NCBI GenBank assembly: GCA_003290165.1
Contig: QNQO01000520.1
Span: 186,001 to 250,000 of the forward strand
Source: Berberis thunbergii
Lineage: Eukaryota > Streptophyta > Magnoliopsida > Ranunculales > Berberidaceae
Reading direction: 5' to 3'
Length of the DNA stretch: 64,000 bases
A program made the translations under genes and the position numbers. The notes beneath the pieces are model-generated. The model made no database searches and was not told where the DNA came from. It was given only the letters and a program-made list of their open reading frames with translations. The first letter of the stretch is position 1. Every line of letters begins with the position of its first letter. Below, piece by piece: positions 23,304-58,383 of the stretch.

Positions 23304-24700
23304 CTCATTATGTGTATTTTGTATGAAATCAAGCACTAATCTCAAATCATACACTAAATGGCACAATAAGGCTAAGTTCAACAACTAAAAAGCCTATTGG
23401 AAGTTCACATGCATTGTAAAAATGATCTTCAAGCCCAAGATTCATGAAGTCAAGCCCACAAAGCACCACCATCTACGGATCTCGAGGAAATCAGCATGAA
23501 GATTTGGACACCATATAACCAACTTTTTTATAACCAAAATAATCTTTACAAACTTCAAAAGCGTTAAGTCAAACTCTACTATCCATTTTCACATATATTT
23601 TACTCCATAACTTTTACACTCTACCTTATTTCAGTTTTACACTCCATCTTATTTCACTTTTACACTCTTTTTTATTTTTACTCCATCACTTTTACACTTT
23701 ATTTTATTTCACTTTTACACTCTTGCTTATTTTTACCCCATCACTTTTACACTTGACCTTATTTAACCCCAATCCTCCACCTTCCACCCCATTATATCTA
23801 TACATAAATTTCAGCCTTTTTCATCTATAAATACCCCACACATGAACAAACATAGGAAAAGACTTTGAAAACTTGGGAGAGAGAAATAGTTGAAGTAGTT
23901 GTAGTTTAGAGAGAAATAAGTTTAGTTTGGCCTAGAGCTTACCATGTTTGGCTAACATCCCACCTTAGGGTGTGGATGAGTCCATGGGAGGATAGTTCCA
24001 AGAAGGCTCTTTTAGATTAATTTATTTCCATTTTTATGTATTAGAGAATCATGAATAGTTAAATTACTCTTGTAATTTGGTTATGTCATGAACTTATGAG
24101 GTAAGTTAGGTGTTTTGTGTTTCATCATATGAATTCAACTAATGTTTATTCTTCTACTTCTTAAGCTCAAGATTAGATAAGTTTATATACTTGCAATTTC
24201 TCTAACAAACTCCTTACAATATTTACATATTATTAGTCTAAGTTTCATTGTGATTTGCTAAATATTTAGTGTTTCATTTAAGTATAGATTCCTTGTATGT
24301 TTTTAATTAAATCCACACTGGATTCTTAGCTTACTAATACAACTTAAACTTGAAATCATTTTGCTCATAATGCCATATTTTTCATCCTAAGGTAAGATGA
24401 AAAATTTACCTTAGGATGTGTTAATGAATTTGGAAAAGAACAATCTAATAGTAGCCTAATGGTGTCATCTACTCATGATGGTAAACTCAAAAAACACTAA
24501 CTCTCACATTTAGATTTTATTTTGCATTTTTATTTCAAACATTTCACCAATCACTTCTTTTATAACTAAGTTAAGTTTCAAAAGAGATTTATAGATTAGT
24601 TTTTTAAGGCTCTCCTTGTGGGATTCGACTCGTACTTATCGTTATCTAACTCAATAAATAACTGTGCACTTACGGTAAGATTTGAGATTGATCAAGTTTT

Positions 24701-29670: not shown

Positions 29671-30451
29671 TGATAAGCATATAAATGAGACATTTTATGT
29701 CCCTAAATATACAATTGCTAAGTCCTATTATCTAATAAAATATCTCATTATGTGTATTTTGTAGAAAATCAAACATTAATCTCAAATAATACACAAAGTG
29801 ACACAATAAGGCTAAATTCAACAATTAAAAAAATCATTGAAAGTTCACACAAGCATTATTAAAGACTAAAGATCTTCAAGCTCAAGATCCATGAAGTCAA
29901 GCCCACAAAACATCACCATTATGGATCTCGAGGAAATCAACATGAAAATTTGGACATCCATAAGGTCAAATTTATCATAACCAAAATAATCTCTACAAAC
30001 TCCAAAAACGTTAAGTCAAACTCCACTATCCATTCTCATATATTTTTTACTCCACTTTTACACTCTACCTATTTCACTTTTACACTCTTCCTTATTTTTA
30101 CTCCATCACTTTTACACTCCATCTTATTTCATTTTTACATTCTTCTTTATTTTTACTCCATCACTTTTACTCTGTACCTTATTTCACTCCAACATTCTTT
30201 CTTATTTAACTCCAACACTCCACTTTCCACCCCTTATCTTTATACATAAGTCTCACCCTTCTTCACCTATAAATACCCCACACATGAACACGCTTTGGAG
30301 AGAGAAATAGTTATAGTTTAGAAAGAAATAAGTGAAGTTTGGCCTAGAACTTACCATGTTTGGTTAACATCCCACCTTAGGGTGTGTGTGAGCCTATGGG
30401 AGGATAGCTCCAAGAAGGCTCTTTTAGATTAATTTATTTCCATTTTCATGT

Positions 30452-30605
30452 CACTATACCAAAAATAGCCATTAGCAACGGTTTTATATCCGAGGACGGT
30501 TGATGCTTTAACCACGGTTCTAAACCGTTGCAAAAATTTTAGCCACAGTTTAAAATCGTTGCAAAAAGTTTAGCCACGGTTTTAAGCCGTGGCAATTTTT
30601 TATTT
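30452..30605. repeat. Left end and subterminal repeats of CACTA 1
   Basis: Short near-palindromic motifs with cores AACGGTT, CCACGGTT and GCCGTGGC in both directions, the probable transposase-binding array. The sequence that follows (about 30605-30760) is shared with element 2, including AATGGAGGCAAAGTAA. Confidence 0.85.
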
Positions 30606-30829
30606 TTTTTACTATCAAATGACTTTTTATTACATCTCATAAGTTTTATGTCTAGAAAATAAAAATTTTAATGTGCCAAAGTTAAACGTTTCCATGAATG
30701 GAGGCAAAGTAACGTAATGTAATTAATTAATAAACTGTATTACATCGAGTCAGGACTTTGTGTTTCAAAAATACAGTTTCATTTCCTGGAAGGCACAGTT
30801 TCATTTCTGCCAATGGACAACTGCTCAAA

Positions 30830-31385
30830 CAATGTCCCAGATTGAGATCTATGAGACAGCTGATCACTGCTTAACTGAGCACTCCTATCCAAATTTACCA
30901 ATTGATCCTCGTAAGGGATAGAGAGTCTAATGGACCAATTCCAATCAACTGAGCCTGATGATAATTAGAAACCTTAGAGACAAATTGACTAGATCTGTCC
31001 ATACAACATAGCTCACCATTATGCCTGCCTTCTTCTACTCCTGCTTGCGGCTTTGATGCCATTGAAAACTGCCTTGCCAGCAGTTGCTCTTGCTGAAGAC
31101 GGAGCTACTGATTCAGAGATGTCTGACCACGCTTTGCACCTGATAAATGATCCAGCAAATCAACATAATGTTCTTATTGGTTGCAACGTCTTTTTTATGC
31201 ATAAAATCTTGATGTCGTAAAAATATTCAGGGTATCTAGGGAATAAACTTTATCAACTTACAGGAGTAGGGACAATGACGCTTTGAGCAAACAAATATTG
31301 GATTGTAGAACTCCCAAAGCTTCTCATATTCCTCTATGTTCCACGCTCCCTTAATTTTGTTGCCACAACTGCATTGTACGAAGCT
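30830..31385 (-). pseudogene. Captured fragment of an unidentified Cys-rich gene
   Basis: Two possible exons. The first, 31385-31262, reads SFVQCSCGNKIKGAWNIEEY then VCSKRHCPYS, with four Cys and a His spaced like a small zinc-binding fold, and is bounded by CAG and GT. The second begins at 31139 after CAG and continues in frame through QTSLNQ, a TAG, then QQEQLLARQFSMASKPQAG and on to about 30900. I do not recognise the gene. A GRF-like zinc domain is a guess. An alternative frame of the second exon also lacks early stops, so the reading is uncertain. Confidence 0.35.
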
Positions 31386-31598
31386 CTGAAACCCAGCCAT
31401 ACAAAAATGACATGCAGCTGCTCGTCTTCATCTGTTCATGGTTATGCATGTTGATCATTCGTGCGTCTCAAGTAACCTTAATTCAAACCTAAACCCCAAT
31501 AAAAAGAAAACCCAAGATTTAAATACAAAGAAAATCTTCAAACTTAACCACACACACACCACCACCACCACAAAAAAGTGAAATTAACAAAACTACAC

Positions 31599-32053
31599 CT
31601 GAACAGGATAAAGATTAGCAAGCATCATAGAACAGGACAGTATCAGAGTAGACACTCTGGAGATCAGCAGTTGACCAGTTTGATCACAAGTCTCTCTTGC
31701 TACCTGACCTCCCAAGGGAGAAGGGGGATCCTTTCCAGGTGGAGCTAGGAGCCTCATAACTTCACTAGATCTGATTTCTGCAATATAGGAACATCATAAT
31801 CATAAGAACATAAATAAGTAAATATATAAAAGCATGCAACAACATGATCCATACCTTCTTCCAGACCTTGGAAGGCATCATTAAGGTGAATATTTATTGA
31901 CATCAATATCTTTTGCATCATTAAGGACCAGTTATCATCATCTCCTCTTGCCTTTGGGAGCATTGCTAAGCATTGGGCAAATTTCTTAACATTGAGTAGG
32001 AAAGCCAGGTCACAATCTAACCAGATGAAATCGAATGCATAATGAAAATTTTC
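31599..32053 (-). pseudogene. Captured RRP12-like gene fragment, two exons
   Basis: Exon 32053-31855 encodes LAFLLNVKKFAQCLAMLPKA then SLMMQKILMSINIHLNDAFQGLEE; exon 31777-31599 encodes SSEVMRLLAPPGKDPPSPLGG, then LLISRVSTLILSCSMMLANLY. Both are bounded by AG and GT. This is the ARM-repeat region of plant RRP12-like proteins (NUC173 family), nuclear factors in ribosomal subunit maturation and export. About 125 residues of a protein of more than 1000 remain, so no function is retained. The intron is present, so the capture was at DNA level. Confidence 0.75.
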
Positions 32054-33851
32054 CTACAATAGCAACACAAAGTTTTTATCTTAAACAACTAGAAATATCA
32101 GTCACCTTTAACACATTTGTACTGCATTTCCCCGACATGATCTTCAAAATAATTACAGCTTCAGCCTGAGAAGAAACATATCAACATCTTATCATGTATG
32201 CATTAGCCTGAGCACTCGAAGTTCATTGTGACAAAGACAAGAAACACCATGTTGGTGATCAAGCAAAAGAAAATAAAATGTATTATTTTCACTTCCTTTT
32301 GCTGAAAGAAATGTTGAATGATCTAAATATTTTTGTGATGATGAATGTACATCATGTTTCAAGGGAAAAAAGGGAACGAAAGCAAGAAGAAGAAGAGCAA
32401 GAAATGGCAGTAAAATAACCAAACATAATCATGTCAATGGTAATCACTATTAATTGTGTGTCTATTTAGATTTGATGTATAATTATTTATTTATTAATAT
32501 CAACTTAAGTCAGTATTGTCAATTTATATATGTCAGGTTAACCTATTTCTCAGAGAAAAAAACAAGATTGTCAAAAGGGTTGCATTAATTATAAATGGGA
32601 TAGGTTTCGGTTGAGGCATGGTGATGCACAATTGCCATCCCTATGAAGCTTATTCCCTGCCTTGCACTCACACTAAATTGCTAGATTGTGGGATGTGGAC
32701 TATTTTGTATAGTACAAGCCTAATTCCCAACTTAAACACCAAGTGGGCATTGGATCTAAGGTTTTCAATTTCATCTAGAAAAGCCTATAGTCTGTGTTCC
32801 ATCACTATCAGTGTTCATCCGAAAAGAATCCCAAAATCTTCAATTTGGCAAGATACAAGTTTCCGTCCATCAACACCTCGCAGTCTTTGCCAAATTAGTC
32901 ATCCAACAGTGTTGAACTTTCTCAAAAACAACTTCCTTGAGAGCATGCACATAAGTCTCTGCTTAAACATTCTATCCCAACTTAACTACTCAGTACCTAC
33001 ACTATTCCCCAACTTAACCACCTACGAAAAACAGGATCGAATGTTGAATTTTCATCTGAAAAGTGCATGGTGCTAGCGGATGGCATCCCATCCTTATTAG
33101 TGTTTCGTGACATCCATTGTGAATTGTCCCACGTGGGACTAATTTTTGACACTTGAACTGAATGAGTGAGCCACAACCCTAACACATTAGTACGTCCTTC
33201 ACAAACTATGCTGACTGTAGGAAATCATGTGCTACTTACCCATTTATCTGGTTCGTCGATGTATTCCGAGCAAAAATAATCAAAACATCAGCAAACGTAC
33301 TGTTTCCTATCCAGCGCTTTTGTCAAGTACCCCACCACCATTGACCTGTTTTAATTCATCAATAAGAAAATCATGTTTAAGACAAATTCACCTTAAAAAC
33401 AAGACCATGTTATTTGTATATCACACATAGGGTAGAGCAGTTGGACCTTTAGATTACTTAAGTCAGATACAGAAACGAAATATTTGACTTCATTGAGGAT
33501 TTGCTCAATATATTAATGTAAATAAAAAATGTGGAGAGTATTTGCTTAGAGATCAAGGCTTTAGTGTGGCATTGACACAATGTTTGGGGCGTCATAAAAA
33601 ATGTAGATTCATGTTTGTATGTTTTGATTGGGAGAGTTTGTTCTCTTTGTAAGCACTGCTCTGCAGTTGCATCTTTCTTTGCTTAGTGACTTCCTTAGTC
33701 ACCTAGCAGTCCATTAATATATACCTACTTGCTTGATTGATTGATCCATAAAAAATAAAAATAAAAACTATGGTTTACACTGATCGACATTGGAAACAGA
33801 AAAGCATTAAGCATTAGCATAACAAAAAAAATGAATAAGTTCAAATATTAC
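32054..33851. other. CACTA 1 interior without recognised exons
   Basis: Possible captured introns. A 152-codon plus-strand frame at 32618-33076 is not recognised and has poor protein character. TCCCACGTGGGACTAA at about 33129 is a short palindrome. Confidence 0.4.
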
Positions 33852-34433
33852 CAATTGTCAGCATCGCTAAAGAATGCACCACAATAAATAGAGAAAAGCT
33901 AGCATCAACTCTAGCAACCTCTGCTAGAGCAACAACACTTCCCATAATGGAGAGCCCTGGACAACCATAACCCTGATAACAGAAATTGTGAAATAGCCAA
34001 TTTACAAAAACAACAAAACGGACAAAGGAAACTGAATTACCTTGATTGTTCCACCACAAAAATTCAAAGCGCCAAGTTTTGGTAAAACGTGAAAAGGAAA
34101 CTTCGCCTCTTCCCAGTACTAGAAAACAATGTGGCAGATATTCAATACATCAAGATAGTCAAGAAAATAACCCTTACCTTTCAACTCAGTTACAAAATAA
34201 AGCCGGTGCTAAGAATTACAAGCAACTAACATATAAACTGAGAAGAAAGTAAAACCCATACATTCCAGCATTAGTTTGTCAAAGGGTTTAACATGTGATA
34301 GACAATTTCAAAGAGAAATGATACCTTGGTCATTATTGGAACAATTTCCTTCACCATTGCCTCTCTGACTTTTTTTTTCTGAGGAGCTTCTCCTCAGGAG
34401 TCAGTAAATCATCAAAATGATAATAATCTGAAG
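33852..34433 (-). pseudogene. ACX4: Captured acyl-CoA oxidase 4 fragment, three exons
   Basis: Exon 34433-34325 (ASDYYHFDDLLTPEEKLLR ... VREAMVKEIVPIMTK), exon 34118-34041 ([20 protein letters not shown]), exon 33972-33852 ([34 protein letters not shown]). ACX4 is the peroxisomal short-chain acyl-CoA oxidase of fatty-acid beta-oxidation; these are its N-terminal helical part. All junctions are AG and GT. The first exon has nine A's where the flanking frames require a different number, so it is shifted, and the third lacks one Ser of the usual HSSLAML. No FAD-binding or catalytic region is present. Confidence 0.85.
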
Positions 34434-35532
34434 CTGCAATTTCAATGCATGGAAATATAAGGGTAGGCTCTTAACCGACAGGAAAATACAATTATTCCTA
34501 CATCGACATATTCCAAAATCTAGATGAAACATTGAGATGGTAATCACCAATTAGTTAGATCCTTGTTGGAGCATTCAGATATCAATATATAGTTATGGTA
34601 GTGTATGGTATTGGTAGAGAATAAAATGGCTGCTGGTGTCGGACTTGTAGGCGAAAAAAATTTAATGAACTAGTAGATTATAAATGCCCAAGTTAAGGAG
34701 ATACCTCATACAGAAAGGAGGGAAAAAAACATTGGATCACTTTCTGCTTCGACTTTTGTGGTAATTTGTGACAATCCATCAAAAGCACATTGAATTCATT
34801 CTATCAAATTCATAGAAATTGAATCAAGGCAAGACTTAGAACCAAATACAGATTCAGGATAAACAATATACAGATAAATAATACATGTCTATGGTCAACC
34901 AGATGAATAATACATGTCTTTACATTAAATAATAAAATACATATTTTGGATTTTGGATATGGTGGAATTGAGTTTGACATTGATTATGGACTTAATGGCT
35001 TAGGGGCTAGGATACGCATTTGCTTGTATGCTTGTTGAATTGTTTCTCAATTGTCGTTGTTGTCATGTTGACATTCGTATTGATAGGGACACTAAAATGA
35101 ATTGGACTCCCTCCCCTCCCAAAAAAAAAAAATATATATATATATATATATCTGTGTGTGTGTGTGTGTGTGTGCAACACTGTTTTTTTTATTGTGAGGC
35201 ACCTGAGACGCTAGGGGACCTCCTTCACACCTCGCCACCCCTGCAAACGTAGTAACCGCCTTCATGGAACCACACAAATCATCAAATAGTTTTAACATGT
35301 TTGGTCTCAAATAAGCAAATCAACCTTTTTTTACTCTCACGGACAACCCATTGACCTTAAAGTCTCCTAAAACATGCACATTTAACGACATCAGTAAGTT
35401 TCTCTAATATCAAATGAAGAACCACACACAAGACCCACAAAGAAATTAGAATAGACTTCCAAGATATATTATGTATCATTTATATATGGGTTTTAAATGA
35501 CGCACAAAAATATAGCACTTTAGAGAACTTAC
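34434..35532. other. CACTA 1 interior with a microsatellite
   Basis: No exon recognised. An A-rich run passes into (AT)n then (GT)n at about 35120-35175. A minus-strand frame, LKLFDDLCGSMKAVTTFAGV at about 35290, is not identified. Confidence 0.4.
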
Positions 35533-37677
35533 CTGAATGGGAAAAGGTGAGAAGTTCTAACCACACGGAAGAGCAGAAAATAGCCCCAATACCCCCAAAA
35601 CAAGCAAGCTCCATAAGCGAACTGTGATAATGCAAATACAATCTCCTTCTCCTGTAGGTGAAAGATTATGAGTATGAAATACAAAGTTGCCAAAACTTTG
35701 ACCATTTTCTCATCCATGTGCATAACAATTGACGTAATGCAGATGTTACCTATAGGTGAAAATGGCACCCCTGCTTGATTAATCATTTGAGGATTATGGT
35801 GTAGGCCATACGTGCCTAAGCATCTCAAACATACTGATTAGTGTGAGTGTGAGTACTTGGCAGAGGCATGGCGCTTCACTGCAGGCTCAGAACAGTTCCT
35901 CAATTAATTTTAGACACTTTATATGCCTAATGCACCCTCCACTTCCCTAAATTTCCCACCAGAAAGATCCAACCTCGTAAAACTAGGCTAATATCACCTC
36001 CAAAGGTAAGATGCGTCGCCAACTTTACTTAGAAGAGCTCTTGAAGAATACAATATCCTTAAAATGTACATCAGACACTTGTATGTATCATCATTTTCAA
36101 GCAGAAATACCCACACTAGCCCCCCTTCCAATGAAATGGAAAAAAGTATAAATGAAAGCAATGGCAGTATTGAAGATATCGATCAATCAAGTAATAACAA
36201 AACAACCTATTTAGGATTACAAGCATGAGAAACTCACAGCAAAAGCATTTGGTTGTTTGATCATTTCGTGAAGAGAATTAGACAAAAATAAATAAATATA
36301 TAATAATAATATTACTAATAATAAATTAAATACACAAGATTGTTCTTCCTGCACTTCAAGCATTAGCTCGAAAGCCTCGAATAAATAAGCAATGTGAAAT
36401 GTCAGGCACTGAAAATTAAATACCATGGAATAAGATAGCTTACCCATATGGATTGGAGATGCTAAGCTTTTGCCACCAAAATATTAATCCACATGTTGCA
36501 GATGTAATCAATATTCCAATTGGCAAAACCAACCAGGCCACTTTCAGTAATTTCGCGGCATTATCTCCTGCTGATGCACCATCGCTGCACAATAGGAAAT
36601 GTATGGAAATGAATAAACTAGCAAAAAAAATGTCTTTCAGGTAATATTCCATATGCATAAAGGATAGAGTTTACCTTATGTAAACAGAATATAGCAAAAT
36701 TGATGCACATGCAGTGTCAGGACCAACCATCCGAGGTTTAACCTAGAGATCTGCTAGGACAAAATGAACTCAAGTCAAATGATTGAACCATCTGTCCCTT
36801 CACATTCTTTTGGATATTAAGGAAAATTATCTGGAATTGATAAAAATGAATACTCATCTTCCCATAAATTCTAAAAGGTTAATTTTGGCCTGAAATGTCC
36901 AAAGTGAATCCTGTCCGATGGTAGTTTTAGACGTGCTGCATGTGTACCATTTGTTTCAATTTGTTTACACAACTTACAGCTCATAGACTACCAAACTACC
37001 ACACCCAAACCAAAAGCAATTGCAGTGAAAGTAAATAGCATAGCAGAAACCCCTTAAGTTAGTCATCCTGTAGTTTTTGAAAACATGAAGAGTTCTTATA
37101 TTTGTCTTACTTGCTTTTTTACACTTGAACCAAAATGAGTGAGAATTGAAGTAATAAATAGCTGAAATTTTACATACAAGGTAAGAGAAATCACCATCTG
37201 ATATCTTCTCACAAGCATGCTCTTCGAAACGCTTCACGGCTAAGAAACAAAATACATGTGACCAAGAGTTGAAATTGCACTGCATAAATCTGTAGTCCAG
37301 TCCAGAAGTTGAAAATTAGATCGAGTGATGATAATCCAAATTTATCAGTTTCATATACTAAAACCGAAACTGATTAACAACATTGCAAAAAAGAAAAATG
37401 ATAGTCATTATTTACCGCGTAGTCATTTTCGTTGAGGCGTCTGACGATCCAAGAATTGAAGATAAAGGGAATTCCTCTGGACAAAAACTGTGTGGCTGAG
37501 TTTCAAGAAAACACACTCACAAATATTAGGTTTTTATTATTATGGAATGAATGAAAGAAAGACAGAGAGAGAGAAGAACTGATCCATGAGGTACTTGAAA
37601 GTGCGAGCGAAGTTGGTACTACTCTCCCCATCTCCAACTCCAACTACTGGAGATGTAACTATTGATTCTTTCGACAT
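35533..37677 (-). pseudogene. RFT1: Captured RFT1 fragment, five exons including the start codon
   Basis: Exon 1 starts ATG at 37677 (MSKESIVTSPVVGVG, ARTFKYLM). Exon 2, 37487-37416, reads FLSRGIPFIFNSWIVRRLNE. Exon 3, 37289-37195, reads YAVQFQLLVTCILFLSREAF. Exon 4, 36584-36444, reads AAKLLKVAWLVLPIGILITS and FWWQKLSISNPYG. Exon 35651-35533 reads EKEIVFALSQFAYGACLFWG. This is the ER membrane protein RFT1, needed for N-glycan lipid precursor flipping. A TGA at 37209-37211 interrupts exon 3, and at least one exon between 36444 and 35651 is missing. The 5' end and probably some upstream sequence were taken with it. Confidence 0.82.
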
Positions 37678-37871
37678 CCCTGATTCAATGATATCTGGGT
37701 GATGTGGTCTGAAAATAAGAGAGACCATTTTTATGTGATGGATGGCAACGGGGCGGATTGGGGCAGATTTTCTTTAGAAACCATCACCACTCCACTCGGA
37801 TTGGCCAATGTTCGTCCCGCCCTCCCCTATTAAACGTTTAAATTTAAAAAAAAATGTCTGAAGAAAGAATG

Positions 37872-38258
37872 GGGAGGGGTGCTTGGAATCCACTTTAGCT
37901 GAACTGGAGGAATCAAAGGGAGGTGCAGCAGCTCCTCCAAGCAATCCACCACCAGAGGCTGCAGCATAGACATCAGATGGATCAATAATTGGAGATGAAG
38001 AAGAAGGCGCATTTCTTCCATTGACATTGACACCACCATTACCACCTCCTCCCAAATGCAAATCAGATATATTTGGAAACCCTTCTCTCCCTTCAATCCC
38101 TTGATCATAAAGAAAACCTTTAAACACATGCCCACCAATCTTCACTACTGCTTGGTATGCATACTCATCTTCTCCATCGTCAATGGCTGTCACTCGCACA
38201 CACTTGAACACTGCCGGTGCTCGCACTTGCCTTGGCAATGTCTCTTTAAAACTTGCAT
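37872..38258 (-). pseudogene. Captured SHI/STYLISH (SRS family) transcription factor, second exon
   Basis: Begins after a CAG acceptor at 38258 and reads [60 protein letters not shown], then [13 protein letters not shown]. This is the IGGH domain and Ser/Gly-rich tail of SRS proteins, which activate auxin-biosynthesis genes and shape leaves and carpels. The first exon with the RING-like zinc finger that binds DNA is missing. The frame stays open past the usual end of the family and runs into sequence of unknown origin to 37774. The IGGH dimerisation part alone could interfere with partners if expressed, but I have no evidence that it is. Confidence 0.88.
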
Positions 38259-38780
38259 CTGTACATACAAAACAAACATCCATAAGATCACAAAAGAGAG
38301 AAAACCATTCAACATGTATATACGTATGAAAAAATATGAACAAGAGAATATAGTACATCCCATTGTTCAACTTGTCCTGATCCATAGATCATAACAAGAA
38401 AATACATTAAAACTTCTTTCATGTATACATTTATAACAAGAGAAACCCATTTCAACTTCTATTGATATACAAGACTTGCATCAAAAGAGAAATCTATTTC
38501 AACTTCTTCTGACCCTATAAGACTACATCAAAAGATAAACCCATTTCAACTTCTTGTGACCTATAGTACTAATTTGGATTTTTCATGTATAAGATGTGAA
38601 CAACAACAGAAAACACTCATTTGAACTTCTTTCAATAAAAAAGAGAGATACCCACTGAAATTTTTTTAGAATTTGATAAAATCCAATATCTCTGAGACAA
38701 AATCCATGATCACCATGCGTCAAGTAAAAGCAATGCCAGTATCTGGAAAGCCACTTACACACACCTATTTCAGCACTTTC
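38259..38780. other. CACTA 1 interior between SRS and RPL24 fragments
   Basis: Contains a short tandem-like pattern in which CCCATTTCAACTTCT recurs at about 38446, 38487 and 38540. Probably part of the SRS intron. No coding frame. Confidence 0.45.
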
Positions 38781-39836
38781 ACTCCCAGAAAACAGGTACC
38801 ATCTATAAAATGATTCTTGGTAGCCCTGTGCCTCTTCTTCACAGCCTCTGCAGCAATGTCCTGCAAACATCACAAGTTCAATCCAATTACATATATTAAA
38901 CAGAAATAAAATGCCACATAAAAAATGACGTTCAACTTGAATAGGTGACAACTATAAGAGATAAGCACCTTCTTATATTGCTTTCTGTACATGGCAGTCC
39001 ATGTAAGCTTCGATGGCTTGAGTCGGTTGTGGAAGTACCTATTGCATTTTGAGTTTGCAAAGAGGAAAACCTACATTTATGAAATAGTTTAGAGTTTCAT
39101 ATTGTTATGATGCGAACATATTAGAAAACTACATCACTCTTGTATTGGGAAACAAATAGTTCATATGGTACCTGTGAATCGGATCGAATAAATCTTATAC
39201 CCTTTCCAGGGTAAATCTTTTGACCTCTAAAACGGTAGAGTTCAGTTCTGAAGAACAAACAATAAAGAATCATTCAATTCAAAACTTTCTGAAAGTTGCA
39301 ATCACAAACAAGAGATAAGTACCCCATATCTCACACACAAAATTTTATATGGTATGCTCAGACAACAAAATATTTGACATTTTCGCGATACATAATGTAC
39401 ACACAGTTTCAAGTCCTTTACATAAAGTGCATACATAATGTACTTGCAATAAAACAAGTCCTATGGTTGAGCCTACTAGTTTACATGGGACAACAATCTC
39501 AAAAAACTAAGATATACATTCTCAAAATAGAACACATAAATCTCAGAAAACAAGTCATATACCCAATCAAAATGAACCCTAACATCCAATCAGATCTAAC
39601 AAGCCAAACCCCATGAAAAATAACGAATACCCATTACAAACAATTATGATTTTTCAAACCCCACTTCAGTATAAAACGATTTCATTCAACTCTACATATC
39701 AAATCAGATCAGAAACTAGATGATAAATGTTAAAACCAACTATAAAACAGAAAACTAACAGAACAAAAAGAGAACAATGAGAGATAGAAGGAAAAACCCA
39801 TATCAAGAATCGAAAATGAACTCACTTGAAAACCAT
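38781..39836 (-). pseudogene. RPL24: Captured ribosomal protein L24 5' half, four exons with start codon
   Basis: Exon 1 (39836-39826, MVFK up to the second base), exon 2 (39247-39172, [20 protein letters not shown]), exon 3 (39070-38969, [34 protein letters not shown]) and exon 4 (from 38860, DIAAEAVKKRHRATK). Introns are GT-AG and the frame is kept across all three, which gives about 78 residues of cytosolic 60S protein L24 (usual length about 160). After ATKN the match to L24 fades near 38800. This is the best preserved fragment of the element. It lies at the right end, reading inward. Confidence 0.9.
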
Positions 39837-40140
39837 TGTGGCTAATCTTCTCTTCTCCTCTACAGTACTGGATTGAAATCACTTGCAATCTTCCATTAAC
39901 TCTCTCTGAAGCTCTCTCATGCTCCTCGATCTCTCCTCTGCGCCAAACCAGAGGTCGAAGAGGTCGCAAACTCTAAACCGCGCAAATCTCTCTCTTTTTT
40001 CGCAAACCCTAAACGAGAGAGAGAGGTCGCAAACTGAGAGATTCAAACCTCTTTCGCAAACCTAAATCAGCGCCAAATTCGTTTTTCCCCAATTTTTTTC
40101 GCCTCAGCGCGAAACTCCACTCTCCAAATCACTCACGGCA
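39837..40140 (-). promoter_or_regulatory. Captured RPL24 upstream region with telo-box
   Basis: Upstream of the L24 ATG are AAACCCTAAA (40004-40013) and a second AAACCTAAA-like block near 40060, plus C/T-rich stretches on the transcribed strand. Telo-boxes (AAACCCTAA) are well known in plant ribosomal-protein promoters. So the element probably carries a promoter that faces inward over all the other fragments. Activity cannot be judged from sequence. Confidence 0.55.
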
Positions 40141-40149
40141 CACGTGCAA

Positions 40150-40399
40150 AACTATTTTGTTTAGCAACGGTTTTTGGCCGTTTCTAATTATAGCCACGAT
40201 TTTTGGCCGTTTCTAATTATAGCCACGGTTTTTTGCCGTGGCTAATGCACCCACGGTTTAGAGCCATGGCCAATCATTTTTATAGCCACGGTTTTAGGCC
40301 GTTGGCCACGTTATCCACGATTTTTTGCCGTGGCAAATAAACCAACGGTTTAGAGCCGTGGCCATCTCAGTGTAGCTAAACATGCCTTTTGGTGTAGTG
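40150..40399. repeat. Right end and subterminal repeats of CACTA 1
   Basis: Repeated TAGCCACGGTTTTTTGCCGTGGC-like motifs up to the end TTTTGGTGTAGTG. Confidence 0.88.
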
Positions 40400-41064
40400 T
40401 GTATTAGAGAATCATGTATAGTTATATTAGTATTGTAGTTTGGTTATGTCATGAACCTATGAGGTAAGTTAGGTGTTTTGTGTTTCATCATATGAATTCA
40501 ACTCATGCTTTCTTCTTCTACTTCTTAAGCTCTAGATTAGATAAGTTTATATATTTGCAATTTCTCTAACAAACTCCTTACAATATTTACAGATTATTAG
40601 TCTAAGTTTCATTATGATTTGCTAGTTATTTAGTGTTTCGTTTAAGTATGGATTCCTTGTATGTTTTTAAATCCACATTGGATTCTTAGCTTACTAATAT
40701 AACTAAAGCTTGAAATCAATTTGCTCATAGTGCCATATTTTCCATCCGAATGTGAGATGAGAAATCTACCTTAGGATGTGTTAATGAATTTGCAAAATAT
40801 TAATCTAAGAGTGGCCTAATGGTGCCATCTACTCATGATGGTAAACTCAAAGCCCTAACTCTCACATTTAGATTGTATTTTGCATTTTTATTTCAAACAC
40901 TTCACCAATCACTTCTTTTTTAACTAGGTTAAGTTTTAAAAGAGATTTATAGATTAGTTTTCCAAATTTTATAGCTATCCTTGTGAGATTTGACCGGTAC
41001 TTGCTGTTATCTAACTCAATAGATAACCGTGCACTTGCGGTAAGATTTGAGATCGATCACCTAT

Positions 41065-46578: not shown

Positions 46579-47075
46579 CACTACACCAAAAATGGCCATT
46601 AGCAAAGGTTTTAAACCGTGGGGGTAACCCATTGGCACGGTTTAGAACCGTGGGCTGTAGAGGCGTCGCTAAATCCTTACTAACGGCTAAAAACCGTGGC
46701 TAAAATATTAGCAACGGTTTTATTTCGAGGATGGTTGATGATTTAGCTATGGTTATAAACCGTTGCCAAAATCTTAGCCACGGTTCTAAGCCGTCGCTAA
46801 ATCCTTACTAACGGCTAAAAACCGTGGCTAAAATATTAGCAACGGTTTTATCTCGAGGATGGTTGATGATTTAGCTATGGTTATAAACCGTTGCCAAAAT
46901 CTTAGCCACGGTTCTAAGCCGTGGGCAGGAGTAGCCACGGCTTAAAACCGTTGCAAGTTTAGCCACGGTTTTAAGTCGTTGCAATAGCTTTAGCAACGGT
47001 TTTAAGCCGTGGCCAGTACTAGCCATGGTTTTTAGCCGTTGCAATAGTTAGCCACGGTTTAAAAACTGTGGCAAT
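46579..47075. repeat. Left end and subterminal repeats of CACTA 2
   Basis: Dense inverted and direct GGCCACGGTTTTAAGCCGTTGC-like motifs. Within it a unit of about 129 bases is tandemly doubled (46663-46791 and 46792-46920, each starting GTCGCTAAATCCTTACTAAC), differing at one or two bases, so a recent duplication. Confidence 0.88.
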
Positions 47076-47249
47076 TTTTTTTTAATAATTTTTTTTAATA
47101 ATATTTTTTTTTTTTTTTGCTATCAAATGACTTTGAGTCATTGAGTCAAAATCTATCAAATAATGGAGGCAAAGTAATGTAATTAATGGAGGCAAAGTAA
47201 TGTAATTAATAAGAAAATGTATTACATTGAGTCAAAATCTATCAAATAA

Positions 47250-47584
47250 TATCTCAAATACAATGATAGTCAAGGAAATAGTCATCTGAAATGATAGTAG
47301 AAGAGCGAACAGAAGAAACATGGTCTTGGGTTGTGCCTTGAGTAAGAAATAACCGCCAAAGAAGTTGCCCAAAATGCTACCAGCAGCAAGACCCATGAAT
47401 GCATAAGATTGGAGACTGGTCATTTTCCATTTTTGGCCATACTCAGCAATAAGAGCATCTTTTGCGACTTCTGTGATGGAAGCACCAAGGTTGCTAATTA
47501 GCATACATGTCATTAGCGCTGGAAGAGTTCGACTTGCAACTGGGACGAAAGTCAGTGTACCCCAAGATAGAAGCTGGAAAAGAA
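47250..47584 (-). pseudogene. Captured folate-biopterin transporter fragment
   Basis: Single exon after a CAG acceptor at 47584: LLSWGTLTFVPVASRTLPAL, then ISNLGASITEVAKDALIAEY, LQSYAFMGLAAGSILGNFFG and GYFLL. These are the NxGASITEVxxDAxxAE motif and following helix of plant folate-biopterin transporter (BT1/FBT) proteins of the major facilitator superfamily, some in the plastid envelope. It ends in sequence belonging to the transposon's left region near 47240. About 110 of roughly 500 residues remain, covering some three membrane helices. Confidence 0.85.
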
Positions 47585-49376
47585 CTGTCGATATTGATTT
47601 GTATCAGCAACTCACTCATTGTTCAACCTTCATAAATTTATAACCATCTATGACTCTTCACAATAAACCAAACCAACATATTTAGTTTTTATTTGTTTTT
47701 CCCCATCATTTGAAATTCAAAATTTACTTGATACTACTCAATAAAACGCCTAATTACCTTACAAACAAGCCTAAACACATGCTCACCTGTAACGGAATGG
47801 GAGTCATATTTAGTAGTCCTTCCAAACAAATTATGAATGTTATCCTGGTATTACTTCTGAAATCTACACTTGCTACCAGATTGAGTATTTGAAAGTGTTT
47901 TTTGGAAAAGATACATAGAAACATCTTAATATGATATGATATGAGAGACGCAGCTGACTAACCTGTGTTGATTCAGGTTTTCCCTCTTGGACTGATTCTA
48001 TGAGCAGGGTCAGGGACGAACTACGGTTGATGCTGCGGTTGATTCAAGCTATCATTTAGAACAGTGGCAAAGACAAAACATTCTATCCTGAATAAACAAA
48101 TGCAAAAATTCAATACCCAAATTTAGCGCAGCACGCTGAAACGTAGCAGAGTGTCGCAACAGCGTGTTCGCATCAAGGCCACTGCATCGCAGCAGCTCAG
48201 AACACAGCACAGCAACAGGACGCTCTGCGACGCAACAACGTCCATCAGCCTAACGCGTATCCACCATCTCGCCACGGCCTTACCACCAGTCCAAGCCACA
48301 GCACAGTCCGCAGCAACCAGTGCCCAGTCCTTCCAGTCCGCAGCCTCTCCCTGCTCCGAAAAATAGGGGACACTCTGATGGCTTCTACCTTCACCAAGCT
48401 GTAAATGTTATACTACTCAACTTTGATGCCTTCTATTCATAGTACCTGCATGAGCTCAACCACAAGCAAATTAATCACTAGTGTTAAACAAATTTCAAAT
48501 TAGTTCAAGCAGATTCAACCCAAATTACTAAAAGAAGATGCATTTCTATGAACTTAACTGCTAAAGATTGAACTTTAATGGGAAACTACTGGAAAATTTC
48601 ATCTGACATTGCCAAACTTATCCTCAGTGATCTACAAGTTGTCAGGTTTGTTGGTACAAAATTTTCAATGTTTTTAGAAAAGACAATTTTCTTCTTCAAT
48701 TAATTTAGTATGCTAAAGCAGAACTATTGACTTATTGAGAGCTCATAGGATAATACATAAGCTGGATAATTTGTGTGCTTAGTGAGGCATTCAGATGGTT
48801 ACAGCAGTCTTTCGTGAGTATGAGCTTCAAGTTGTTGCAAGCTATATAACAAAAACAGATAGGGAGAAGGTAAAGATCAAGCTCATATAAGCCTACAATA
48901 CAAATGGATACTGGCATCATTGTTTTAAAAGCAAATTACCCGATACAAAAGAAAACATGGATTGAGAGCACTATAATATTTTACTACTGACAGTGAGTAG
49001 GAAAGCCCTGAAAACAGGAAAATTCAAATAAACAAATTGACAAGTATGGTGAGCTCACCTTGGATGCTTCAAGTCCTAGTTCACAAGCTATGCATGAGAA
49101 CTTGAGAAACACTTTTACGCGACTGAATCAAAATTCTGCTTTCTTCTCAATGACTCCAACACTTTTAAGGGACGATCTCCCATAGAACTAGCTCCCCCCA
49201 TAGAAGATTTGACCGTCAGCCTATTCTCTTTAGGGTTTTTTATTTAGCTGGCATGACGTTTAGACCCTAAATTCTCTTTAGTGTTGTGACACAGTTATAG
49301 ATGTTGAACAAGAAAAGTATTTGTCCAAAAAAGTTCAAATTTCATACAAATGTAAGAAAAACATACTTTGTCAAAG
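47585..49376. other. CACTA 2 interior, mostly unassigned
   Basis: No exon recognised with confidence. The stretch 48125-48365 is unusually GC-rich, with CAGCA/CAACA steps (CAGCAGCTCAGAACACAGCA) and one 71-codon plus frame; it looks like repetitive text. A possible exon end (GGACTTGAAGCATCCAAG then GTGAGC) lies at about 49072-49090 on the minus strand. Confidence 0.4.
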
Positions 49377-49647
49377 TCTTTAACCAGATTAGCCTCTATA
49401 GAAGAATTATTCTGATACTCTGCCCAAAGTTCTTGCATCTCCTCAGCTGCAGATAACAAAATATTTGTTAGAGATGATAATGCTTCAATTGAAAAAGTAA
49501 ATTGAAAGAGATTCAGATGAAAATATCAACTATTACCCCTTAATCCTCCACCAAGAACTTCGCACATCTCATTTAAGGCAGCTTGTTCACGCCTACTTTT
49601 TTCTTGTTTAGGCACGCCATCAGCCGGAGTGATATCTCCAACAATAG
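49377..49647 (-). pseudogene. Captured HDDC2-type 5'-deoxynucleotidase fragment, two exons
   Basis: Exon 49647-49537 reads IVGDITPADGVPKQEKSRRE, QAALNEMCEVLGGG; exon 49446-49377 reads AEEMQELWAEYQNNSSIEAN, LVKDFDK. They join in frame. HDDC2 proteins are HD-domain 5'-deoxynucleotidases acting on nucleoside monophosphates; the GDITPADGVPK and EEK-RRE blocks and the EAxLVKDFDK block are family marks, the last carrying the metal-binding Asp. The part with the first HD residues and the C-terminus is missing. Confidence 0.85.
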
Positions 49648-49941
49648 CTGTGAAAGTGAAAAGTTGTGTATCAATGATGAAAACTAAAAACATATAATGG
49701 TCATTTCCATTCAAATATACTGAATGTAACAGGAATTTTACACACCTAAATCTTCCAACTAGTTTCCCCAAAATGAAATAAAATAAGTCAAAGAAGTTGT
49801 GAGCAAACCAAAATTTAAGGTTGCCATTAAAACCTGGAGAAGCAAAACAAGAAATGCACCCAAGATGAAGAATTCTACATTGAGGTAGGAGCTCATATGA
49901 AGCATTAGACAAGCAATGAAAGAAATGATTATATGCAATAC

Positions 49942-50078
49942 CTGTGCTGGAATCCATGTCACTTGACCAATTGCATCCATAGCAGCCTGGCGGAACCCTT
50001 CCACAGAAGCAAACCACTGCTCAGTTGCCCTAAATATTGTCGGCTTCTTGGTTCTCCAGTCATATGGATACTTATGTT
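49942..50078 (-). pseudogene. Captured organellar isoleucyl-tRNA synthetase exon
   Basis: One exon bounded by CAG and [47 protein letters not shown]. The [19 protein letters not shown] block is highly specific for bacterial/organellar-type class I IleRS, located between the editing domain and the KMSKS region. In plants the nuclear gene serves plastids and mitochondria. The frame is intact, but this is 45 residues of about 1000. Confidence 0.85.
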
Positions 50079-50778
50079 CTGCAAAAGAGAACACTTATCT
50101 GAAACAATCAGTTCTTCTTCATCTTCTTGGTTTCCACTCCTCAGTTGCACAAACAATCATGTTCTTCTTCATCTTCTTCCTTTCCTTTTGTTCTTATTTG
50201 AAACAGAGACAGAATAATAACAGAGGAGGAGAGAAACAGAGAGGAAGGACAGAGCACGCACAAAGGGGAGCGTAGACTTCTCTCTTTGTATAGATTGTGA
50301 GAGAGGATTGCCTCTTATTTCCTACAAAGTCATGAAGTTTGTAATATTTTTAGTTACATTGACAATCGTTCTTATTAAACCCAAAAGTTCCGAAACTAAT
50401 AAAATCAAGGAAGTGAAAGTGCATAGTAGTGACTTATGGCCTTTGACTAATCTAAATACAAACACTAATTCTACGCAGCCATTCCCTCGACAGCTATAAT
50501 TTTCCTAAATTCTAACTTCTTGAGCATGCCCAACCCACACATTGTTTATGGGAGAATCGTTCTTAGAAGAATCATATCCGTATTGCGAGAAAATCAGAAA
50601 TCGTAGAAGGTGCTTTGGTTGGCTATAAAAATTTCTCATACTTACCTATTAACATATACAGTCTGGTTGATAAGAAATCAGGTCCATAACTACTTCAACA
50701 TTCAAATTTTCTAGATATCCTCGATTGTTATAGAAAAAAACAATGATTAAAAACCTCTTTAATTTTCCATGGACATAC
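50079..50778. other. CACTA 2 interior without recognised exons
   Basis: Likely intron remnants and joins. CTTCTTCATCTTCTT-like text occurs twice (about 50111 and 50162). Confidence 0.4.
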
Positions 50779-51238
50779 CAGAGTCCATCTGTGATACACC
50801 CCTGCCAAGATCGACGCCATACGAAATAAGGAAAAGGCAACATAAAATTTCCAGTTTGCTGCTGGCCACGGTTTCCCCTACAAATCAAAATGTCCACTAA
50901 AAACTCAGACCCTTGAAAATTGGAAGCCAGAAATGAAGCAATTTAGGATGTCAAGAAAATAATAAAGACAGCTAAAGACAGTCCTTAATACGTATATAAA
51001 CATACGGGGAGCAGGGAAACAAAATTATAAGAAAAAAGTGATGCAACTGACATACACGCAAAGGAGACTAAATATAAAAAAAAGTTAGTATGCAGCCAGA
51101 ATTAACAAACGGTGCTTACAGCTGCAGAGCAATATTCTGCCAGATATTCTGCTTGGGAAAGAACCCCTCAGGAGCACCACTGTATTCAAATCCATCATAG
51201 GATAACACATCATCGAACGTCATATTCACAATGTGCCT
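50779..51238 (-). pseudogene. IBR3: Captured IBR3 (acyl-CoA dehydrogenase-like) fragment, two exons
   Basis: Exon 51238-51120 reads HIVNMTFDDVLSYDGFEYSG, APEG and then, one frame over, LSQAEYLAEYCSAA; exon 50877-50779 reads GKPWPAANWKFYVAFSLFRM, ASILAGVYHRWTL. IBR3 is a peroxisomal protein with an aminoglycoside-phosphotransferase-like N-terminus and an acyl-CoA dehydrogenase C-terminus, acting in indole-3-butyrate conversion to auxin; this piece lies at the end of the first domain. A one-base shift after APEG breaks the first exon. The second is intact. Confidence 0.8.
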
Positions 51239-51586
51239 CTGCCATGAATAGAAGTCAGAATAAATAAACACATTTGTTTTCTAGGATCAAAATGACAACC
51301 AGCATCACATCAAATCCAATTGCTATAGCTGCTTCTACCCTTGCTCCATACACCAACCTCTGCATAACAAAGGTAAACCAAACAACACATTATATGACTA
51401 AGTTGAAGATGGAAATACCAAGAATCAGAAACAAATAAAGATGGAAGGGGGAAGTGTGACCTTGATTCGTGAGAGGTGGATTGCACCAAAACACATTGGG
51501 CAAGGCAAGGCAAGGCTCACAATAAGCGTAAATTTCACATTCTGCGAGCTCAATTTGGTTAAGATTCTTACAGGCCTAGACAAAAG
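51239..51586. other. CACTA 2 interior up to the retroelement insertion
   Basis: Probable intron of the IBR3 fragment. No further exon identified. Confidence 0.45.
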
Positions 51587-51591
51587 TAAAC

Positions 51592-53306
51592 TGATGCGCT
51601 ATTTTAGTAGCACACAACTTAATACCCTGCTTTGTAATTTGTAGTATAGAATAAGTAGGGATCGTTCTAGACCGGGGATTAGAGGGCTTGTTAATTACAC
51701 TAATAATAATTAAAAGACAACTAACAACCTAATTAATTAAATAAAAGGGGATTGGATTTTCTAAATTAAACTATGAAAATAACTACGAAAATTAATGTAA
51801 AGATAATAAACTAAAGAGATGGCAAAGATGAGAAATTAGCTAAGGGTTTTATCTCCACACACCAAACATATGCTTATAAATTAATCTTCAATAATCACTT
51901 GCTAACTTGTGAGAGACAATACTCAAGACTAACCGTGACCGCACTGCATTAATCTTATTATTTTACCAAGTTCGTTGAATTAAACTAAGCGTCGCTTTCA
52001 AACTATTCTTATCATGCTATCTAAACAGGAATCGCGAGTTAAATAGAAATCTAAGATCATCAAGTTTTGTGGAAAATATGAACACTGACTAGGCAATCAC
52101 AAGTATGATCAACATCTTGTTCTTGCCTAGGTTTTGACTTAACCTTACCAACGTTCCTTGGTATTTACTACTTGTGAGTACAAAATCATAACAATTAGGT
52201 GAAATTCTCCTATACTCTAGCCCCAAATCCTAGCATGCTTACTAAGTTGGCCACCTTAACAAACATAAAAGGAAAAGTTCTCTATAAAGCAGTTAAGCAA
52301 AACACAATCACTAATAGCAAGGAAGATTAAATTCAATTAATTTATAAAGCACATGTTCGGGGCTTCGAATCCACCCCTAACTAAGAGGAGTTTAGCTAGA
52401 CATATTAATTATGTTTAAACAGTAATCCATAATCAATAATCAAACTAAAATTAAGAAAAATAGATGTTTAGAGATGAAAATAAAACACTGATCCGTGGTG
52501 GCCTTGAGTGAAACTGGGGTGCAAATAGCAGAACTTTTCCTTCACCCTCCTTGCTCACTTCGCAAGCTGTTCCTTCCTCTTCGATCTGTTTAACCTCTCT
52601 GTTCCTTCCAACTCCTGATCCAGTGAAAAGAGGATGTGAGTGAGGCGACGACGATGGACAACGAAGGAGTGAGGGGATGACGATGTTGGGCTGCTGGCGG
52701 AGAACGGGAAGAAGGGACGAGGAGGGAAGGACGAGGGACTGAGACGGTGGCTAGGGTTTGGCGAGGTGGTTCTGATGGTAATGGCGATAAGGGACAGTGA
52801 GAGAGAGAACTGAGGTGAAGGTTTTTGTGCGAGGAGGTTCTGCTTGAATGAAGAGAGGATGATGAAGGGCTATCACGAGGATGAGGGATCTGCGAGAATG
52901 GGGTTTGATGGAGGCGAGGTGGATGGCTTGCGGTCAGGACGATGGAGATGGATGGTGGGTGACGACGACGGCTAGGGTTTGTGTGAGGATGATCAGGGAG
53001 GAAAAGGAGATGATGGAGGCAGTGGATCAATGCTATTGCTCCATGGGTCGTTTAAGCCAGGTATCTTCCTCCTTTTATTCTTGTTTTCCTATTTCTGTGG
53101 TTTCCTTGTTGGTGTGGTTTCCTTGTTGGTGTGAAGTCCTTGTGCAATTAGTATTCCTAAATTGCCAATTTGCTTCTATTTTAAAGTATTGTAATTGGAA
53201 ACCTACACAAACATGAAAATAGCAGTTAGTACCATAATTAACAAGTAATAGCTAATAATACATATAGAAATATGGTACTAAAAATAGCCTAATTATGCCC
53301 CTATCA
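51592..53306 (-). repeat. 3' LTR of copy B
   Basis: 1715 bases, TGATGCG...CCTATCA. A GA- and GATG-rich block at about 52620-53040 gives Pro/Ser/His-rich antisense frames that are compositional, not genes. Confidence 0.95.
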
Positions 53307-58267: not shown

Positions 58268-58361
58268 GAACTTGTACCTGAGATAAAGAAAGAAAAAAAA
58301 AATCAATAAAAATAAAATTAAATAAATAAAAACTAATTAAGTAATCAACAACTTTTCTAAT

Positions 58362-58379: not shown

Positions 58380-58383
58380 AAAT

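Follow-up and report, generated by a model that had tools for sequence, protein, structure and literature searches.

How DNA transposons capture host genes is an open question, and the locus analyzed here raises it in a particular form, namely why pieces of several unrelated genes should lie within one CACTA element and all point the same way. The element (element 1) occupies positions 30452-40399 of the window, the whole 64,000-nucleotide stretch of Berberis thunbergii DNA under analysis. Several capture states and a strong one-way orientation occur together in this one genome, and dating of sense and antisense pieces could thus separate a capture bias from selection. If the bias lies in capture, gene shuffling would be tied to transcription, which would explain spliceable multi-gene exon arrays.

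The nearest precedent is the one named in the initial annotation, Tgm-Express1, a soybean CACTA element of the wp allele with five unrelated host gene fragments comprising exons and introns (PMC1947982). Element 1 resembles it in its CACTA-type ends and its several unrelated, intron-containing host gene pieces. The Tgm-Express1 fragments should also share one strand, because all five are spliceable as cassette exons of one transcript (PMC1947982). The description available, however, concerns a single element of 5.7 kb, whereas the present one belongs to a family with block states, a common leader and a common RPL24 piece, across whose members orientation is tested here. Pack-CACTA and other Pack-TYPE elements, from Arabidopsis and other plants, are non-autonomous elements with terminal inverted repeats and chromosomal gene DNA, for which nearby insertions in one orientation, and their merger through terminal deletions, have been proposed (PMC8903248, PMC13317346). 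The available text of these two sources states no sense or antisense rule for the load, in contrast to the one-way load found here, and that of the 2026 review (PMC13317346) contains no occurrence of "orientation", "directional" or "sense". The CACTA family Tpn1 of Japanese morning glory likewise combines conserved ends with interiors captured from genes, one of which is known in chimeric transcripts, and its available account makes no statement on load orientation (PMC5105172). Chenopodium CACTA elements (Jozin) differ in having a transposase and single short fragments. Helitrons are rolling-circle elements, without terminal inverted repeats or a target-site duplication (TSD). Those of maize capture several gene fragments stepwise (PMC3288121), as the family here appears to do, yet by a different mechanism.

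Boundaries and class of the element

Element 1 is a single non-autonomous CACTA element, inserted as a unit. Its left end, CACTATACCAAAAA, begins at 30452, the inverted CACTACACCAAAAG ends at 40399, and TGT stands outside both.

23304..24694, no strand: empty paralogue of the target site, in the same window, with one TGT
30449..30451, no strand: left copy of the TSD TGT (right copy 40400-40402; the single TGT of the empty paralogue is 24037-24039)
30452..30600, no strand: left (3') end, comprising the inverted terminal repeat and an array of subterminal repeats
40161..40399, no strand: right (5') end, comprising a subterminal array and the inverted terminal repeat

Both ends carry subterminal arrays of the GCCACGGTTTT type. 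These repeats of 10-20 bp, which occur in both direct and inverted orientation, the inverted CACTA terminal repeats and the 3-bp TSD are those of CACTA (En/Spm) elements. The empty paralogue matches the joined flanks of element 1 (left, 29744-30451, 78%; right, 40400-41059, 89%), so that ends, TSD and empty site agree with the original proposal that complete ends, subterminal arrays and a TGT duplication delimit one element. The transposase, said to be missing, is not among the Pfam families matched on either strand. Host gene DNA with introns thus lies between the ends in the manner of Pack-CACTA, and element 1 is classed as a gene-carrying, non-autonomous CACTA of the Pack type, one member of a large family in a 2.24-Gb plant genome. 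Its mobilisation would depend on a CACTA transposase supplied in trans. The search for other insertions of this element, advised in the initial annotation, led to contig C490 (locus L027), where the same blocks stand in the same order at 94-95% identity, with a TSD of their own, TTT on both sides (right end; left end in L003). C8222:93150-103155 was rejected as a second insertion; it is probably the other haplotype (left flank identical in 1492 of 1504 columns).

Gene pieces within element 1

The minus strand carries pieces of RPL24, SRS/STYLISH, RFT1, ACX4, a RIX1/PELP1-like gene and one gene without a homologue, and probably a seventh captured source, a ubiquitin-conjugating-enzyme (E2) remnant.

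31000..31420, minus: piece without a homologue found; two exons joinable at GT-AG
31599..32165, minus: RIX1/PELP1-like piece; three stretches of exon covering residues ~211-337
32461..33200, no strand: middle block without gene identity, common to L026 and L027 and in part to L012 and L019
33240..34523, minus: ACX4 (acyl-CoA oxidase 4) piece; gapped exon stretches, about residues 40-232 of 436
34524..35006, no strand: stretch missing from L011 and L026 (34523 joined straight to 35007), kept in L027
35500..37716, minus: RFT1 piece; five exon stretches, ATG at 37677
37754..38658, minus: SRS/STYLISH (DUF702) piece; 3' portion of the domain plus sequence downstream of it
38683..38813, minus: ubiquitin-conjugating-enzyme segment, probable remnant
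38814..39861, minus: RPL24 (eL24) piece; starts 25 bp ahead of the ATG (39836) and reaches into exon 4
39862..40160, minus: family leader; no match in RPL24 genes, common within the family

Four of the identities first assigned stand: RPL24 (PF01246, 2.7e-9), SRS/STYLISH (PF05142, 9.7e-23; L013 retains the N-terminal part of the domain), RFT1 (PF04506, 5.3e-26, exons spliced by eye) and ACX4 (PF02771, 0.0016; PDB 2ix5, 2.5e-14). A fifth piece, read as RRP12-like, had to be reassigned. The piece gave no match in PDB or Pfam, but it matches RIX1/PELP1-like proteins (of 30 candidates, 27 match at E ≤ 0.001, and 26 of these have PF08167; tblastn agrees) and has at least 157 exon matches in the genome. 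The sixth is still without a homologue: searches with 31000..31420 matched nothing. Its frame can begin MAGFQSFVQC and holds one in-frame stop, in exon 2, and element positions 471-801 (30922-31252) have dozens of further occurrences elsewhere. The segment 38683..38813 is probably from an E2 gene, because in L013 this stretch adjoins a UQ_con exon (8 of 20 relatives).

That at least five unrelated host gene pieces share one orientation is upheld by the Pfam and PDB matches, all minus (the PDB searches covered the minus strand only), and by a plus strand on which Pfam matched nothing at E of 1 or below. Introns are kept, as had been claimed, and the exon joins fit GT-AG; the tally of GT at 15 of 16 donors (the exception being RFT1 exon 1) and AG at 14 of 14 acceptors is a description rather than a test, since the boundaries were set by eye with GT and AG as guides.

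Parent genes and the common leader

Retained introns and partly open frames would also be expected of ordinary neighbouring genes with no transposon load. However, the RPL24 genes (on C2958, C1646, C959, C3024 and others) and the RFT1 genes (on C171, C2026 and C3340) lie on separate contigs, rather than in the element's order without CACTA ends; the pieces are truncated and fused, and the same blocks recur on C490 with their own TSD. The existence of an empty site refutes this reading, whose probability is negligible. Alignment of exons to parent genes covers RPL24 and RFT1, two of the six pieces, and for both the parents were found elsewhere in the genome, as in Pack-CACTA. The RPL24 genes L043/L044 match element 1 at 94.6/93.9% over 38814-39257 and at 89.9/88.7% over 39529-39861. 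C7873 (L029) was discarded as an RPL24 gene, being a family member whose right-end match stops at 40185.

Similarity to the RPL24 genes begins 25 bp before the ATG, and the RPL24 promoter was therefore not captured; as the driver of element 1 it was rejected, the L043/L044 match ending at 39861 with ~3.0/2.8 kb of upstream DNA compared. For RFT1, similarity to the gene begins some 39 bp ahead of the ATG (163 bp of gene compared beyond the match). The leader is a putative promoter, from which chimeric transcripts of element 1 are predicted. The motif SKCN is found in 15 of 15 element copies of RPL24, and SKCK in gene L043 and PDB plant proteins; the common SKCN suggests that RPL24 was captured once. 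The RPL24 pN/pS is 0.71 among elements vs 0.15 among five RPL24 genes.

Relatives and probable serial capture

The relatives comprise 20 loci, about 15 insertions, and because they were chosen by similarity to the right end of element 1 they sample one lineage, in which captures have a common history. In seven of the 20 the sequence read contains no left end, and one further locus, L010, is cut by the contig start. The counts leave out L015, L028 and L021, probable haplotypes of L013, L024 and L020, respectively; L018 and L022, whose right flank starts alike, were treated with L014, which has an imperfect TSD (AAA/AAG).

The leader and RPL24 are present in all 20 loci, SRS in 16, RFT1 in 10, ACX4 in three, and RIX1 and the piece without a homologue in one. 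The blocks are thus largely nested, outward from the common leader. The E2 exon (8 loci) and the SRS N-half (7) never occur with the RFT1, ACX4, RIX1 or no-homologue blocks, while RFT1-bearing loci share a junction, 38658/38683, at which both are missing; the loci retaining them therefore look earlier. Nesting is not strict, since L012 and L019 retain parts of 32825-33450 without ACX4 exon 2 and L024/L028 a scrap of the ACX4 block, and these out-of-order remnants indicate that some block absences are losses. The nesting fits serial capture, some absences being losses, and so supports the repeated capture proposed earlier from element 1 alone.

Orientation across the family

The window also contains part of a second family member.

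46579..51587, minus: element 2, left end and part of the interior; right end outside the window
47265-47597, minus: BT1 piece
49361-49648, minus: HD-domain gene piece
49921-50052, minus: isoleucyl-tRNA synthetase piece

An apparent LTR retrotransposon at 51588-60100 interrupts element 2.

Orientation was counted by Pfam scans of both strands inside elements, at E up to 0.001 with E-values per frame, and covers conserved domains, since these are what Pfam detects. Twelve sources are sense, running in the direction of the leader, and none antisense (two-sided sign test, 4.9e-4), and element 2 adds two, both sense, with none antisense at the same threshold. A one-way orientation bias exists in this lineage; one element alone could do no more than suggest it, and the pattern extends beyond element 1 to its relatives and element 2.

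Matches above E=0.001 were excluded on the sense strand (ACX4 0.0016, raffinose synthase 0.0016, tRNA-synt_1 0.005, DEAD 0.0099, Helicase_C 0.042 and weaker ones) as on the antisense strand (HAMP 0.02, CENPH 0.24), and Ycf2 and MyTH4 in L026, the same DNA in two frames, were counted once. Outside the sign test stand RFT1, RIX1, the no-homologue piece, and H+-ATPase (L020), pumilio (L011) and the IleRS PDB check, the last three covering the sense strand only. PWI and Ribosomal_L39 are sense matches, unplaced within the sequence. The single antisense match at E up to 0.001 is DUF3537 (2.1e-42, 2 of 27 frames), at L018:3715-4242 as read from open reading frames rather than Pfam coordinates; L022 aligns there. 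The sequence common to L018 and L014 ends at L018:4300, and the 17 kb leading to the L022 right end yielded no left end; for these reasons the DUF3537 match was left out of the captures. If that stretch of L018 is element, DUF3537 would count against a strict sense-only rule.

Could six same-strand pieces, at 1 in 32, be coincidence, with bias absent? The pieces are inherited jointly in the lineage, so independent events may be fewer than the sources counted. The sign test nevertheless disfavours chance, as do the two further sources from element 2 and the AT skew, which agrees without any gene identification, and we consider coincidence highly improbable. Introns are T-rich and would sit on the minus strand, for which reason positive AT skew is expected. 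It is above zero in 11 of 12 unique segments of two-ended elements and in 5 of 8 segments of loci without a left end, and slightly negative in the no-homologue piece of element 1; the controls for these values are centred below zero and thus provide no clean null.

Origin of the one-way orientation

On balance we lean towards a Pack-type CACTA that grows by merger, in which the cost of read-through spares sense pieces. Neighbouring elements of the same orientation would merge through loss of their facing ends, and each merger would put host DNA, or the other element's load, 3' of older content. Merger by terminal deletions is a model reviewed for Arabidopsis Pack-CACTA (PMC13317346, PMC8903248), and its substrate is present in the window, where 6.2 kb separate the co-oriented elements 1 and 2. 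CACTA-like motifs of right-end type occur inside L024, L012 and L026. No locus turned up that combines the precursors of a merger with its product. Read-through transcription would start at the leader, or at a host gene holding the inserted element; antisense or terminator-bearing captures may carry a higher cost, because antisense RNA would target essential genes or polyadenylation would come too early, and sense pieces without gene 3' ends could last long enough for amplification.

Capture may instead be directional in itself, a broken end copying an open transcription bubble or R-loop in sense, mostly from gene 5' parts, a route we hold to be rather unlikely. Every source detected inside elements is sense, the RPL24 and RFT1 similarities begin just upstream of the ATG and the ACX4 piece lies in the 5' half. 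Against a 5' bias, the E2 piece spans positions 66-117 of a 140-position profile, the RIX1 piece is an internal one and the captured beta-galactosidase domain is presumably C-terminal in its protein; the upstream limit of RFT1 rests on the 163 bp compared. Template switching, a published route for animal TIR elements, provides a precedent (PMC8277862), but no capture has been caught in progress and a selection filter would leave the same present-day pattern.

The common leader at one end permits another origin, in which captures entered a transposase-gene intron of an autonomous ancestor, were read through in sense, and passed their order to non-autonomous descendants. CACTA transposase genes (En/Spm) are indeed read from the 5' end. 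We rate this origin very unlikely, no transposase domain appearing in element 1 or in the scanned parts of element 2 and of the relatives' unique segments.

A stricter rule strikes us as distinctly unlikely, namely that the family grows one way, segments being added only behind older ones, only in sense and under the common leader, with capture coupled to the direction of transcription. Were it true, an element would record its captures in order and would generate co-linear arrays of exons from several genes. The leader itself holds TTTSSCGC and TAGGGTTT, which we take to be E2F-like and telobox-like motifs, respectively; judged by these motifs, the family might be active in dividing cells.

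A single inserted element and its gene pieces

Element 1, a non-autonomous CACTA element at 30452-40399 of the window (G000:C520:186001-250000; assembly size 2.24 Gb), is bounded by the inverted termini CACTATACCAAAAA and CACTACACCAAAAG; next to each terminus lies a subterminal array of the motif GCCACGGTTTT, and TGT flanks the element on either side. An empty paralogue of the target, at 23304-24694 in the same window, matches the two flanks joined, with a single TGT. The ends, arrays, TGT and empty target thus identify 30452-40399 as one inserted unit, as the initial annotation had proposed from the first three. Its claim that no transposase is present also stands, as a six-frame Pfam scan found none on either strand. 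The copy on contig C8222, whose left flank is identical in 1492 of 1504 alignment columns, probably represents the other haplotype.

In the six-frame scan, minus-strand frames matched RPL24, SRS (DUF702) and ACX4 (E 0.0016), in agreement with the strand first assigned to these pieces, and the three plus-strand frames matched nothing. RPL24 and ACX4 were backed exon by exon by PDB sequence matches (minus strand only searched), and the RFT1 assignment was upheld by PF04506 (5.3e-26) on exons spliced by eye. The name RRP12-like, given to another piece, has to be replaced by RIX1/PELP1-like: of 30 candidates, 27 match with E no higher than 0.001, the lowest-E one, from Nyssa sinensis, being 76% identical, and the piece spans residues 211-337 in three exon stretches (tblastn, two candidates as queries). 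The leftmost gene piece consists of two exons that can be joined, for which homology searches found no homologue. At boundaries chosen by eye, all 14 acceptors are AG and 15 of 16 donors GT, the sole exception being RFT1 exon 1.

Alignment to parent genes, suggested for every exon, covered two of the six pieces, RPL24 and RFT1, and located candidate parents of both elsewhere in the genome. Two stretches of the RPL24 piece align, across introns as well as exons, to the RPL24 genes L043 (contig C2958) and L044 (C1646): 38814-39257 with 94.6% (L043) and 93.9% (L044) identity, and 39529-39861 with 89.9% and 88.7%. Between them, 39258-39528, in intron 1, is absent from both genes. Since the match begins at 39861, the captured stretch begins 25 bp before the ATG; it ends in exon 4. 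Upstream of 39861 no match occurs within about 3.0 and 2.8 kb of the DNA upstream of L043 and L044. For RFT1, similarity to a gene on C171 begins at 37716, about 39 bp ahead of the ATG (163 bp upstream compared); at 76-80% identity, this gene is possibly a paralogue of the donor rather than the donor itself.

RPL24 exon 4 sequence following on from the captured part (C-terminal peptide query, residues 2-38) recurs in dozens of places, e.g. G000:C363:423134-423244. Some of these lie about 1.1 kb away from a right end of the family; other relatives have kept more of RPL24. Intronless-looking RPL24 copies lie at G000:C1400:36679-36933 and G000:C3017:6943-7197, their exon matches adjoining in the fetched loci L030 and L031.

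Block states in the family

The right 559 bp of element 1 (terminal array, leader and 21 bp of RPL24) served as family query. Among 40 scored places, drawn from 4,296 first-look candidates, 28 matched at full length within one base, including element 1 and the C8222 copy. Twenty of the remaining 26, relatives thus selected by the right end, were compared block by block. They represent about 15 insertions, as L013/L015, L024/L028, L020/L021 and L014/L018/L022 resemble haplotypes or close duplicates.

Blocks of element 1 in relatives and insertions (present if at least half the length was found)
Leader: 20/20 relatives, 15/15 insertions
RPL24: 20/20 relatives, 15/15 insertions
UBC remnant: 19/20 relatives
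SRS: 16/20 relatives, 11/15 insertions
RFT1 exons 3-5: 10/20 relatives, 8/15 insertions
RFT1 exons 1-2: 4/20 relatives
ACX4 exon 2: 3/20 relatives, 3/15 insertions
Middle block: 3/20 relatives
ACX4 exons 3-6: 1/20 relatives
RIX1: 1/20 relatives, 1/15 insertions
Leftmost piece: 1/20 relatives, 1/15 insertions

The UBC exon is kept in 8 of 20 relatives and the SRS N-half in 7, none of which has RFT1, ACX4, RIX1 or leftmost blocks, and RFT1-bearing loci share the junction 38658/38683, which lacks both; the loci retaining them therefore look like an earlier state. The block states speak for the repeated capture initially suggested, but nesting has exceptions: 32825-33450 is partly retained in L012 and L019, which lack ACX4 exon 2, and L024/L028 retain a scrap of the ACX4 block, so that some absences are losses. 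Absences are weaker evidence in L010, which is cut by its contig, and in seven of the 20 loci, in which the stretch examined revealed no left end. The further insertion of the composite element that had been sought exists on C490, where every block recurs in unchanged order at 94-95% and TTT flanks both ends. RIX1 exons, counted exon by exon, have at least 157 matches in the genome, which places the left block in a wider set and gives element 1 the look of a two-lineage mosaic.

Coding constraint on RPL24 is relaxed in this family, with a pN/pS of 0.71 among element copies vs 0.15 among five gene copies (pooled pairs). Together with the reading SKCN in all 15 element copies compared (SKCK in gene L043), this suggests one RPL24 capture, followed by relaxation.

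Orientation of the captured pieces

The common orientation claimed for element 1 extends to its relatives. Sequence of the relatives that recurs neither in element 1, nor in the scanned portion of element 2 (a second family member, 46579-51587), nor in an earlier locus was taken in segments of at least 150 bases (37.8 kb; the 181-base L018:6517-6697 left out) and scanned with Pfam on both strands, sense being the strand read from the leader. Sources with E up to 0.001 per frame were counted inside elements, i.e. with both ends found or element sequence on two sides. Twelve were sense: RPL24, SRS, Ycf2/MyTH4, ABC1, UQ_con, DXP reductoisomerase, bZIP, WD40, NTP_transferase, argininosuccinate synthase, sulfate transporter (placed in L020 by reading ORFs) and beta-galactosidase. 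None inside elements was antisense at this threshold (two-sided sign test 4.9e-4, treating as independent sources that are only partly so, being of one lineage). One-way orientation is thus present in this lineage, within the reach of Pfam, which is blind to fragments that have no conserved domain.

The scanned part of element 2 adds two sense sources by Pfam, BT1 and HD_3, and no antisense one; 60101-64000, its possible continuation, has no Pfam match below 0.01 on either strand. MDD_C, MBD, PWI and L39 are sense, in loci or places not shown inside elements. The lone antisense match, DUF3537, is a probable gene start at L018:3715-4242, immediately beyond the limit of the sequence that L018 shares with L014, and demonstrates that the scan can see antisense genes. 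With these and element 2 added, the wider count is 18 sense vs 1 antisense (two-sided 7.6e-5, kinship ignored).

The sense strand of plant introns is rich in T. AT skew, a check independent of gene identification, exceeds zero in all four parts of element 2 and in 8 of the 9 blocks of element 1 (leftmost piece -0.005). Among the unique segments of two-ended elements, 11 of 12 have positive skew, L024:4653-5718, an insert coding G-rich repeats, being the exception; for segments of loci that lack a left end, the figure is 5 of 8. Skew is negative in 18 of 20 control windows, which all come from the 64-kb window and, centred below zero, give no clean null.

Possible mechanisms and known systems

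Such elements would grow when neighbours inserted in the same orientation merge, a route proposed for Pack-CACTA (PMC13317346, a review; PMC8903248), and under read-through transcription a filter would act against loads that are antisense or carry a terminator. Two family members lie in the window in the same orientation, 6.2 kb apart. Merger and filter, taken as one explanation, are modestly favoured here, the exceptions to nesting keeping confidence lower. The main rival, a capture step that is itself directional, seems rather unlikely. The same exceptions weigh on the reading that the family grows one way, new segments being added only behind older ones and only in sense, which appears improbable.

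The precedent cited for a multi-gene CACTA, Tgm-Express1, is apt: it holds five fragments, all spliceable as cassette exons of one transcript (PMC1947982). Like those of element 1, these fragments by implication share a strand, so that co-orientation is not unique to element 1. No report of sense bias in CACTA loads was found in the open-licence literature, as far as its accessible text extends; none is stated in the accessible parts of PMC8978399, PMC8195511, PMC8903248, PMC1947982, PMC5105172, PMC3288121, PMC2575219, PMC2613891, PMC8277862, PMC2773423, PMC13317346 and PMC1852403. The words "orientation" and "sense" have 0 occurrences in the accessible text of the 2026 review PMC13317346.

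Leader motifs and other content of the window

The leader (39862-40160) carries clustered E2F-like and telobox-like motifs, matches which by themselves are no evidence of function. TTTSSCGC, which we take to be an E2F site, occurs two to four times per copy in all 21 right-end sequences, and TAGGGTTT, presumably a telobox, at least once in each; shuffles of the 298-base element 1 leader give expectations of 0.0095 and 0.017, respectively, the other 20 sequences being related copies of 513-599 bases, terminal array included.

The CACTA right-end motif TTTTGGTGTAGTG also occurs inside elements (L024:2637, L028:2653, L012:773, L026:2786), possibly as a nested element or scar of merger.

Element 2 (46579-51587, perhaps continuing at 60101-64000) belongs to the same family and has the same orientation as element 1.

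Gene pieces of element 2
Minus strand: BT1 piece
Minus strand: HD-domain piece
Minus strand: isoleucyl-tRNA synthetase piece

It is interrupted by 51588-60100, which looks like an LTR retrotransposon with long repeats 98% alike. Two copies of a retrotransposon-like stretch, 94% alike, lie at 1300-6058 and 54552-59369.
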